Shown piece by piece: positions 54,698 through 57,580 of a stretch of DNA of 64,000 nt (position 1 is the first letter of the stretch; the number at the start of each line of letters is the position of its first letter). Both the position numbers and the translations under genes were made by a program. This DNA comes from Karstenula rhodostoma CBS 690.94 (Eukaryota > Ascomycota > Dothideomycetes > Pleosporales > Didymosphaeriaceae), in assembly GCA_010093485.1 (NCBI GenBank), contig MU001507.1:259620-323619 (forward strand), in the 5' to 3' direction. A model generated the notes under the pieces. It had not been told where the DNA came from. It ran no database searches and saw nothing but the letters and a program-made list of their open reading frames with translations.

Positions 54698-54712
54698 GCG
54701 GCTGTAGTCTAG

Positions 54713-54763
54713 GTTAGTTCCTCCAACTGAGGTCAATAAATTCACTGTCTAACATCCAATCAG
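54713..54763 (+). other. 51-nt spliceosomal-intron-like insertion in the tRNA D-loop
   Basis: Begins GTTAGT, contains TCTAAC 10-15 bases before its end, and ends CAG; all three signals and the length fit the spliceosomal introns of this window (the PTH11-like gene uses the same GTTAGT donor at 63437). The insertion is also bordered by direct GGTTA repeats (54712-54716 and 54765-54769), and GTTAG/CTAAC plus CCTC/GAGG inside it can pair. Confidence 0.7.
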
Positions 54764-54785
54764 CGGTTATGATGTCTGCTTTACA

Positions 54786-54807
54786 TCCAGCATTAGCAAG
54801 TGTAGAG
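54786..54807 (+). other. canonical anticodon-loop tRNA intron (22 nt)
   Basis: Located directly after loop position 37, as for endonuclease-spliced eukaryotic tRNA introns. Its removal restores a seven-base loop and a five-pair anticodon stem. Confidence 0.8.
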
Positions 54808-54843
54808 CGCAGAAGGTCCCCGGTTCGATCCCGGGCAGCCGTA

Positions 54844-55255
54844 CTATCTTTTTTCTTTTTTTCCATTGCTGTTAGGTGCAGCAGTGCGACCTTTTTGGCT
54901 GCTTAGGCTCTCGGGTGGGGCAAGTAAGGAACATCATTCTGCAGAGAGGGCACGACAATCTGTCTGCACCTACGTTTTTACGCATGGTGTTCTGTGGACT
55001 TACTGTTGCGGTGTGCTGCTTAATCGTCCTTGGCTGCACAATATCGCACTAGCAGAGGCGTCCGGACAACGACCTTTTCTTCTTCTCTCAATTGATTTGA
55101 TATCCACGGAACACTTTGACTGAAACGTCTACAGGTGGCTCACACAGAGGAGCAAGATCGACATAGCCATGCGATATCTGTGATTCGATTATAGTATCTA
55201 GGAATCCCATCTCCGGCAGAGCCTCCAGGGTTCGGTCTCACTGGCATGGTGCAAT
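54844..55255. other. intergenic interval
   Basis: Apart from the Pol III terminator nothing is recognised between the tRNA and the HeLo/kinase-like pseudogene. Confidence 0.5.
54849..54862 (+). terminator. Pol III terminator of the tRNA gene
   Basis: Two T-runs (six and seven Ts split by one C) start five bases after the discriminator base. Confidence 0.85.
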
Positions 55256-56940
55256 CTACACACAACACTGCTCAATACTCCTCACAACCCGCCAGTTGAA
55301 CTCATGCAGCCACTCCCCCTCCGGCGCGGCACCAGATAGCCCAAAGTCGGACCTCAGGCACCGCAGAACAATATCCTGGTATTCATCCCCCATGCAGCCC
55401 GCCAGGTGGCTCTCAGCCTTCCTAATCGCGCGCTGCCGTAGCATCTTGATGGGGTAAATGCGGCCCCAGTCGCGATAGAGCGACCTCAAGCGATACTCCC
55501 TTTTGTCTGGATCCTTTGGTGTCGCGGTCAAGTCCTGGATCTGTTCGTCTTGTATTGCGCGCCGGAGATCCGGGATGATGGTCTTCGAGCTCAGCCGACC
55601 ATCCTTCGGCGTCTAGTTTCTCCCATGTATTATGGTTATCTATCTTGGCCGTTCTGTTGTTGATTTTCGCGATCGTCTATTCAAGCCAATCCTCTGAGAG
55701 CTGGATTGTGCCGGAAGCCGCATCCCCACCACCTATGGGTTCGCTGGGCCGTGCATGATCAAAGGCACCGATGCGATCGGAGGTACTGGAGTCCCTAAAA
55801 ACATCGACTTCTAGCTCGCTGAGTGGGCTCCAGAGCCCTATCTCGAGGAGAACGAGACCCAAAGCGTAATGGTCATGGCGGAAGCGGTGGCAACTGCGGT
55901 GAGGAGAGGACCGCGACCACCGTTTCGTTTTGTGCAGTAAATATGCCGGGTGACGATAGACCTTCTCCGCCAGAAAATCGGGCAGTTTGTGGGTGCGCTT
56001 CGTCGCGGAGGGCGATAGACCATGCACGGCATTTCGCGAGTTCTTGAAGCCGTCAATGTACGGCATAGACATGTCGTACGGTAATCGGCTTCCAGAAGGG
56101 CTGGTCTTGGGCTGGCTCCAGAAGAACATGACGTTCTTGGCCGAGAACTCGCGGTGCATCCAAGACGCCAAGTGAAGCTGGTACATGGCTGAGATGAGCG
56201 TCTTTGGTAGTTGGTATCGTTTCGTTATGGATGGCAGGCTCACTGTTAAACCGCCACGGGAACTGCCGATGTTTGACGCTCGAATATTAGATTTTAGTAC
56301 AGTTGCCAGATTCAAGGGATCACGGGAGTGATCAATGTTGCTGGGGAGCTCGTATATCAGCGATATGCGGTTATGGTCCTTTTCAGTCATCCGGATACAC
56401 TGAAACGCCGATACTGTGATTGCCTCATTCAGCAGTCGTGCCAGGTCTTCCAGACTGCGTGTCTCGCTGTTCATCTCTGCGAGGAAATTTTCGTACAGGC
56501 CAGGCCTAGGTACGAACCCAGTCAATAACACCTTGTCTTCCAGAAACACGTGAATAGGCTCTAGGCCCGCAGTCCTGTTCCAGGTTCTCATGCGCGAGGC
56601 AGATCTCCAATGTTTATGTAGAGGGCTGGTTTGCCGGTTGATTGTGATGCTGCTCTTTTCGTCTTGGCCGGCATCTAATGCGCGGTATCTGACTGAACAG
56701 GTGAAGTCATGCTTTTGCTCCCCGGATTGAGATGCCGGCTGGCGAACATCAAGATCCTCATCAATCTTCGCATATTCCCTAGGGCGCGATGGTCGGTTTG
56801 GCTAATCACACTTGCCACGGTATCTCGAATGATGTACAGGTTATCGTTGAGCTGCGCGAGATCCTTGAGCAACTTTTCGAAACTTTCCCTGTCTTTGATG
56901 ACCCATTTGAGCTTCATGAACCCAACTTTAGCATTAGCAG
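55256..56940 (-). pseudogene. HeLo/kinase-like (prion-inhibition-domain) protein, truncated and broken
   Basis: On the minus strand the order of conserved blocks is: end of a HeLo-type domain (KLKWVIKDRESFEKLLKDLA, about 56915-56850), then the long kinase-like domain seen in fungal HeLo proteins (IHVFLEDKVLLTGFVPRP, LASWMHREFSAKNVMFFW, HDHYALGLVLLEIGLW) and a C-terminal region (YRDWGRIYPIKMLRQRAIRK). It is broken by a frame change near 56690, an in-frame TAG at 55677-55679 and another frame change near 55585, and it lacks the first part of the HeLo domain. Intact relatives take part in self/non-self recognition and regulated cell death. This copy cannot make a full product. Confidence 0.72.
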
Positions 56941-57580
56941 TGAACCTGCCGGTGCTTTTGTCCGGGGACGATTGGCCTTCATAGACAGCCAGTCCTTCGG
57001 CGTGTTCTTCATGACCGTTGTCGGGATGGCCATAAAGCTGTACTGGGGCGAAATTGAGAAACACCTGCGCTCGACCGCGCCCTACATCGCCATGGCGTCC
57101 GATCGCGGCGCCACAGCAGACCACAGCGTCCTCGTTCGCATGCCGAGCCATCCTGTCGTTGGGCTGGCATACGGCTCCAGTTGGCGCCAGCCTTTGCTCG
57201 GCTTTGTCACGGTCAACGCGGCACTCAGCGAGGTGCTCGTTATCACGCTCAACACCGTGCCGTTCTCGACGTCGACGGCGTATGTGGCTTTCGAGCTCTC
57301 TGTGTATATCAGCGCTGGTATTCTCGCGCTGATGATCGCTGCTGTGCCGCTCGTAATCGTGTGGGGACTTCGAAGAAGGAGGAAGGCGGTGGGGAATCCT
57401 CCTGGGTGCATTGCACAGGTGCTTGCGCTGGTCGATGATGAACTACGCAGCAGCTTTGGCGATCTTAAAGAGTTGGACAGTACACAGAGAGATCGTGTAG
57501 TTCAGAGCTGGAAGTGCAGGTATTCGCTGGTGGGCCGCGGCCACGGGGATAGAAATATTGTGGCGCGTTGTTCCGGATAA
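56941..57580 (+). pseudogene. 3' fragment of a DUF3433 membrane protein gene
   Basis: The open plus-strand frame matches the C-terminal third of fungal DUF3433 proteins: FVRGRLAFIDSQSFGVFFMT (membrane segment), APYIAMASD, FVTVNAALSEVLVITLNTVP, ELSVYISAGILALMIAAVPL (membrane segment), GNPPGCIAQVLALV, and a cytoplasmic end with RDRVVQSWKCRYSLV. It starts at a good splice acceptor (GCATTAGCAG, ending 56940), but the upstream exons that should encode several hundred residues are absent: the bases before it belong to the HeLo gene on the other strand. No internal lesion is seen. No start codon is available except internal Met residues. Confidence 0.7.

Follow-up and report, generated by a model that had tools for sequence, protein, structure and literature searches.

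Probable spliceosomal introns in tRNA genes of Karstenula rhodostoma

A tRNA-Val(UAC) gene with two insertions

This report concerns a transfer RNA (tRNA) gene, tRNA-Val(UAC), located in a stretch of 64,000 nucleotides (nt) of the genome of Karstenula rhodostoma CBS 690.94 (contig MU001507.1, hereafter the window), together with the other interrupted tRNA genes found in the same genome. The gene carries two insertions, one of 51 nt in the D-loop and one of 22 nt in the anticodon loop. Its parts and flanking elements are listed below, the intronless reference being a paralogue (L010) on contig C2.

54653-54661, plus strand: TATATATAT element, 45 nt 5' of the mature 5' end, likely a TFIIIB/TBP site
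54698-54843, plus strand: tRNA-Val(UAC) gene, 146 nt, defined by sequence parsing, ARAGORN after excision and the Rfam alignment
54698-54712, plus strand: exon 1, from the 5' acceptor strand through G15
54713-54763, plus strand: putative D-loop GT-AG intron, site 15/16, 51 nt, starting with GTTAGT and ending with TCAG
54713-54718, plus strand: putative 5' splice site GTTAGT
54749-54753, plus strand: predicted CTAAC branch-point box, branch A at 54752, 11 nt from the intron end
54764-54785, plus strand: exon 2, C16 to A37, with anticodon TAC
54786-54807, plus strand: usual anticodon-loop intron at 37/38, 22 nt, not GT-AG
54808-54843, plus strand: exon 3, C38 to the discriminator A73, with the T-arm and B box uncut
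54849-54862, plus strand: TTTTTTCTTTTTTT, T runs resembling a terminator of RNA polymerase III (Pol III)

The original prediction had described a tRNA-Val(UAC) gene with all its arms present and paired, a 51-nt insertion at 54713-54763 running from GT through CTAAC to CAG, and a second intron of 22 nt after position 37. Parsing of the sequence agrees with this description as a whole, and its statement on the arms holds overall but needs two corrections, since T stands opposite T at 13:22 of the D stem, beside three pairs, and the first acceptor pair, 1:72, is formed by G-U (both read by eye). The same mismatch and the same G-U are present in the intact paralogue. It had also been proposed that excision of exactly GT...AG restores the tRNA, and ARAGORN indeed calls tRNA-Val(tac)i(38,22) when that stretch is removed and nothing when it is present. 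Rfam with its default filters and ARAGORN on the raw sequence reported no tRNA anywhere in the window, so both programs miss this gene. With permissive filters, the Rfam tRNA model aligned the full 146 nt at 37.8 bits, against a gathering score of 29 (L009:1509-1654, corresponding to 54698-54843 of the window). Three registers of the insertion (AG..TC, GG..CA and GT..AG) lead to the identical spliced product. The predicted RNA fold of the whole gene is uninformative, with a z of -1.55. Within 54713-54753, the 5' splice site GTTAG is complementary to the CTAAC of the branch box, and the two are paired in the predicted fold of the intron alone.

The intact paralogue (C2:967749-967832) has no intron in the D-loop and shows the site empty. 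The two Val genes differ at 7 of the 73 mature positions, and four of these differences form two paired changes in the acceptor stem (5:68 and 6:67) in which pairing is kept. Because this intact Val-UAC gene is present, the activity of the window gene itself is less certain. Intact UAC-Val genes elsewhere, together with the absence of a transcript from the locus, had been named beforehand as signs of a pseudogene, and the first half of this expectation came true with one such gene; applied to the interrupted genes as a class, the pseudogene reading fails, since for Leu-AAG, Leu-CAG and Ala-CGC all copies found have an insertion, as described below.

Interrupted tRNA genes in the genome and the anatomy of their insertions

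The scanned genome comprises 44.3 Mb in 29 contigs, with the window on contig C16. An ORF of the window encoding phosphatidylserine decarboxylase matches a protein of K. rhodostoma CBS 690.94 (Ascomycota, Dothideomycetes, Pleosporales, Didymosphaeriaceae) with 100% identity over 94% of the query. At least 17 tRNA genes, the window gene and 16 more, have an insertion outside position 37/38, at ten sites ranging from the acceptor stem to the T-loop, and they belong to tRNAs for Val, Leu, Ala, Arg, Glu, Gly and initiator Met (iMet). The 16 additional genes are listed below; site numbers (nucleotide before/nucleotide after) are our own reading.

Leu-AAG, contig C1: site 24/25
Leu-AAG, contigs C5, C7 and C10: site 18/19
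Leu-CAG, contig C9: site 18/19
Leu-CAG, contig C17: site 10/11
Ala-CGC, contigs C12 and C9: site 25/26
Arg-CCG, contig C9: site 3/4, acceptor stem
Glu-UUC, contig C5: site 13/14
Gly-GCC, contigs C10, C2 and two genes on C7: site 60/61, T-loop
iMet-CAU, contig C5: site 38/39
iMet-CAU, contig C8: variable loop, after nt 46

The anticodon loop of four Leu genes reads AAG, and not UAA. An ordinary 37/38 intron accompanies the insertion in 15 of the 17 genes, the two iMet genes being the exceptions (in Arg-CCG, by eye). Among the options put forward in the original prediction, the action of the spliceosome on a Pol III tRNA gains strong support from the 16 further genes of the same genome with this kind of insertion, with nine of the ten sites elsewhere in the tRNA.

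The catalogue was assembled from the Rfam family, T-arm patterns, similarity and a pattern running from the branch box to the B box; in the Rfam family scan, 62 of 1177 candidates were scored and 54 matched. It is incomplete, containing for example no Phe or His gene. The interrupted genes stand among about 89 tRNA loci, consisting of 79 called by ARAGORN (not every call being verified as a functional tRNA) and ten uncalled intron-bearing ones; seven of the 79 calls are themselves intron-bearing genes, six of them misread. Ten of the 17 genes were reached without the branch-box pattern, namely the window gene, the Leu genes on C1, C5, C7, C10, C9 and C17, Ala on C12, iMet on C5 and Gly on C10. 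Leu C1 was reached with a T-arm pattern and the other five Leu genes by similarity. Ala C12 and iMet C5 came from the Rfam scan, the iMet insertion being recognised only in the branch-box pattern scan, and Gly C10 was reached beside a match to a T-arm pattern. Most matches of one T-arm pattern and of three branch-box scans were without a tRNA. One further pattern scan, with 10 matches versus 6 in its control, was set aside and none of its matches was used. Exact-pattern scans of viral contigs and of prokaryotic genome contigs gave 0 matches.

All 17 insertions have GT..AG ends, and their lengths vary only from 48 to 53 nt, with a mean of 50.4. In 15 of them the 5' splice site reads GTNNGT, the two Ala genes having GTAAGC and GTAAGG instead. 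The branch box is CTAAY in 16 insertions and CTAAG in one, with its A at 9-11 nt from the end; since seven of the 17 genes were recognised via the CTAAY pattern, this box is biased and the ends are not. Ala C9 contains two CTAAT boxes, the last one 3 nt and the preceding one 10 nt from the end by our count. The patterns used for finding genes did not require GT or AG. Each site allows one to four registers that give the same spliced product, and by our arithmetic the chance of a GT..AG option at ten out of ten sites is ~288/256^10, or ~2e-22, under equal base frequencies. Ordinary anticodon introns in this genome do not follow the GT..AG rule: among 61 anticodon introns of at least 5 nt reported by ARAGORN, some of them misparsed, GT..AG occurs in 3 (within one base of register), one of which is the iMet C5 insertion itself.

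The insertions show what is expected of U2-type introns: all 17 start with GT and finish with AG, their excision restores the exon product, and the A of the branch box is suitably spaced from the 3' splice site. They do not behave as canonical eukaryotic tRNA introns, which sit at 37/38, since they occupy ten other sites; even in iMet C5, at 38/39, cutting at the usual 37/38 site would put G in place of A at position 38. It is highly probable that the insertions are spliceosomal (U2-type) introns, and that at least 17 Pol III tRNA genes of this genome contain them. Self-splicing was rejected, about 50 nt being too short.

It has to be considered whether the tRNA splicing endonuclease could itself remove the insertions at non-canonical sites, in the manner of Cyanidioschyzon merolae and archaea, with GT-AG being incidental. 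The tRNA-Ile(UAU) of C. merolae is described as having introns with hBHBh' motifs in the D-, anticodon- and T-arms (PMC9602550), and certain eukaryotic endonucleases are reported to act at non-canonical sites (PMC4090602). However, a strict bulge-helix-bulge (BHB) motif, with a 4-bp central helix and 3-nt bulges, was found in 0 of the 17 genes in any allowed register, the best having 3 of 4 pairs, in a test confined to the strict motif as opposed to relaxed HBh' forms. Moreover, this route leaves the GT..AG ends in 17 of 17, the fixed distance of the branch box and the length of 48-53 nt unexplained, all of which are accounted for if the spliceosome acts. We therefore regard removal by the endonuclease as very unlikely.

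The length of the window insertion had also been equated with that of the local introns of messenger RNA (mRNA) genes. In the window, 20 GT..AG candidates (GTNNGT plus CTRAY) join two open frames, compared with 4 in the reversed control; 11 of these are of up to 70 nt, or 8 when counted by start, as some starts are shared, with a median length of 51 nt, and in candidates of up to 60 nt the median distance of the branch A from the end is 10 nt. When a simpler motif was used, the two real strands yielded 29 candidates of 45-54 nt and the two reversed controls 9. The insertions may thus match local mRNA introns in length, in so far as motif-selected candidates represent such introns.

Integrity of the exons and elements for transcription

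When the insertions are excised, ARAGORN finds a tRNA in 17 of 17 sequences, with the anticodon as read by us in 16; the remaining one, Arg-CCG, is called Gly-CCC, its CCG being read by eye. On the unspliced genes the same program missed ten, assigned a wrong tRNA to six (Leu C1, for example, being called Val-CAC) and was right for iMet C5, taking the insertion as its intron. Rfam with permissive filters placed 7 of the 17 intron-bearing loci above the cut-off, one of them (Arg) minus its upstream exon.

The exons show constraint. Paralogues sharing a site have exons of 96-100% identity over 70-81 nt. For their insertions, identity is 50-75% in 12 of the 13 pairs and 90% in the remaining pair, compared with 45-52% for shuffled sequences. 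A similarity search with a whole Leu-AAG gene retrieved six loci, four Leu-AAG and two Leu-CAG, and all are interrupted. Intronless paralogues with an empty site exist for Val (L010), Gly (L077), Glu (L146) and iMet (L042).

These intact copies, of Val-UAC, Gly-GCC, Glu-UUC and iMet, would be the suppliers of tRNA if the interrupted genes were pseudogenes hit by an intron-like mobile unit, such as an introner-like element. A 2014 review (PMC4090602) likewise states that D- and T-arm insertions in eukaryotes occur mostly in one of many synonymous genes, supposed pseudogenes. However, the exons are intact and stay nearly identical while the insertions diverge, all found copies of Leu-AAG, Leu-CAG and Ala-CGC are interrupted, no intact copy of Leu-AAG or Leu-CAG was found by similarity, and the paired acceptor-stem changes keep the window gene foldable. 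Nor is a recent mobile or introner family visible among the insertions, since their cores, compared between different sites, resemble one another no more than shuffled cores do (mean 0.49 versus 0.48, 123 pairs), and a word-based search detected no second copy of the Val insertion in the genome, the other insertions not being searched one by one. An introner-like family, for which near-identical copies at several sites would be expected, was rejected on the same 123 pairs. We consider it unlikely that the class consists of pseudogenes.

Of the 17 interrupted genes, 12 have a TATA[AT] motif between -51 and -38, and two of the other five have only 40 nt of upstream sequence. TATA at -56 to -35 is found in 37 of the 63 catalogued tRNA loci with at least 60 nt upstream, a few of which are intron-bearing. 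A T run begins within 40 nt 3' of 12 of the 17 genes, and one is also seen behind the four Gly genes when longer flanking sequence is read; Leu C10 has no T run in the 45 nt downstream, and a Gly gene follows it. The B-box region (nt 52-62) is left uncut by the insertion in 13 of 17 genes (by eye). Spliceosomal introns normally leave transcripts of RNA polymerase II (Pol II), and the TATA box is a Pol II element too, so the genes might also be read by Pol II, the removal taking place on that transcript and not on the Pol III one. The T runs, the uncut B-box regions and the frequency of a like-placed TATA among the tRNA loci of this genome argue against such a division of labor, which we find hardly credible.

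Several points weigh against the interpretation of the insertions as spliceosomal introns of working tRNA genes. The data come from one genome only. The exon identity between paralogues could partly reflect gene conversion. For Glu-UUC, Gly-GCC and iMet, as for Val-UAC, intact copies are available, and the interrupted ones could be non-functional; the window gene, taken alone, could be so for the same reason. Both Ala-CGC copies found are interrupted, but no similarity search was made for Ala-CGC, and a diverged intronless copy of the three isoacceptors could exist. The weakest case is Arg-CCG, where the gene may lack an intron and have a less well paired acceptor stem, as ARAGORN and Rfam (43.4 bits) both fit the unspliced sequence from the intron end onward. 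In favor of the split reading, a start of the gene upstream of the intron is needed to place its TATA at -42. Besides the bias of the branch box mentioned above, the branch-box pattern had 15, 41, 36 and 41 matches versus 33, 36, 49 and 57 for the same pattern reversed. Since these matches are no commoner than in the reversed controls, recognition of the interrupted genes rests on the tRNA exons. Finally, the comparison with mRNA-type introns relies on small, motif-selected and partly overlapping sets of candidates, which are unconfirmed introns.

Some other features were observed at tRNA loci. On C10 (1112089-1112431, minus strand; L130/L152/L137), a Leu-AAG gene with a D-loop intron is directly followed by a Gly-GCC gene with a T-loop intron, in front of which no TATA of its own was found; the two interrupted genes possibly form a dicistronic pair. 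Downstream, the four Leu-AAG genes and Leu-CAG C9 (L012, L127-L130) have a common trailer, CTATCGTCCGCTC ... TTCGGGA, parts of which resemble hairpins. At C6:1020780-1021180 (L140), a full tRNA-Tyr gene precedes two further Tyr 3' halves, each after CTCCCAGAACTAAAAAA(A/G)TTGACTGGGGCA, and similar T-arm matches occur at C12:1546761 and at C22:96894 and 97000. Six clustered tRNA-like T-arm matches at C9:1051739-1086199 are perhaps inserted mitochondrial DNA. Two tRNA-like loci were left unparsed, C3:2526940-2527180 (L136), whose anticodon region is split by a long stretch lacking GTNNGT, and C6:1187430-1187590 (L163), which has no matching acceptor 5' strand (both by eye). Elsewhere in the window, 56678-57442 on the minus strand is part of a gene matching a HeLo (prion-inhibition and propagation) domain.

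Processing, origin and comparison with known systems

The resemblance of the insertions in at least 17 tRNA genes to mRNA introns suggests that the cell needs the mRNA-splicing machine to make some of its tRNAs. In the proposed pathway, Pol III would yield a precursor carrying two kinds of intron. In the window gene, the spliceosome would recognise GU, the CUAAC branch box and AG, the 51-nt intron would leave as a lariat and the D-arm would then fold; the tRNA splicing endonuclease would subsequently cut the anticodon intron, and a ligase would join the halves. As the eukaryotic tRNA splicing endonuclease is held to locate its cuts by measuring from the body of the tRNA (PMC4090602), the D-arm intron should leave first. 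It is likely that the spliceosome is an obligatory tRNA-processing enzyme in this fungus, with Leu-AAG, Leu-CAG and Ala-CGC made only from interrupted genes, many pre-tRNAs passing two unrelated splicing machines in a fixed order, and splicing capacity setting the supply of particular tRNAs. Should these genes be functional, tRNA precursors are among the substrates of the spliceosome, and programs that search for tRNA genes can overlook a class of essential ones. The paper on tRNAscan-SE 2.0 states that a eukaryotic tRNA gene has no more than one intron, and describes the use of BHB models to seek introns elsewhere in the tRNA among archaeal candidates (PMC8450103).

As for their origin, the introns were probably inserted by reverse splicing, as proposed for the U6 small nuclear RNA (snRNA). 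Since Gly, Glu, iMet and Val keep intronless paralogues, gain or loss occurred inside gene families. In Leu-AAG C1 the intron sits 7 exon nt further on than in its paralogues (by eye), reflecting either a shift of the site or an independent gain. Interrupted tRNA genes that work would be a clean record of the landing of spliceosomal introns, as the product is known to the base and paralogues with and without the intron can be compared; the gains, including the shifted Leu-AAG C1 site, can be dated, and whether introns enter abundant nuclear RNAs by reverse splicing could be tested directly. Introner-like elements are abundant in Dothideomycetes; fungal elements of this type form sequence families, whereas no sequence family is visible among the tRNA insertions described here.

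Among the titles and abstract openings listed by searches of open-access literature, most subscription papers and preprints lying outside this scope, there was no report of spliceosomal introns in tRNA genes. Introns in the D- and T-arms, several per gene, are described for tRNA genes of C. merolae and of nucleomorphs (PMC9602550, PMC4090602), those of Guillardia theta measuring 3-24 nt (PMC4090602). The tRNA-Ile introns of C. merolae have BHB motifs, while the K. rhodostoma insertions have 48-53 nt, GT-AG ends, a branch box and no strict BHB. Canonical 37/38 introns are also unlike these insertions, being variable in length, free of the GT-AG rule and removed by a different enzyme. Closer parallels are mRNA-type introns in other non-coding RNA genes. 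Spliceosomal introns occur in ribosomal RNA (rRNA) genes of Ascomycota, including 18S (Cubero 2000 and Bhattacharya 2000, as cited in PMC11889510; Rogers 1993, as cited in PMC11782384), that is, in the same phylum, although in rRNA rather than tRNA genes. The U6 snRNA of fission yeast likewise has an mRNA-type intron in a Pol III transcript, which is spliced and is thought to derive from reverse splicing (PMC10484740). However, U6 is one snRNA and itself a part of the spliceosome, whereas in K. rhodostoma the insertions are found in at least 17 tRNA genes, at ten sites.
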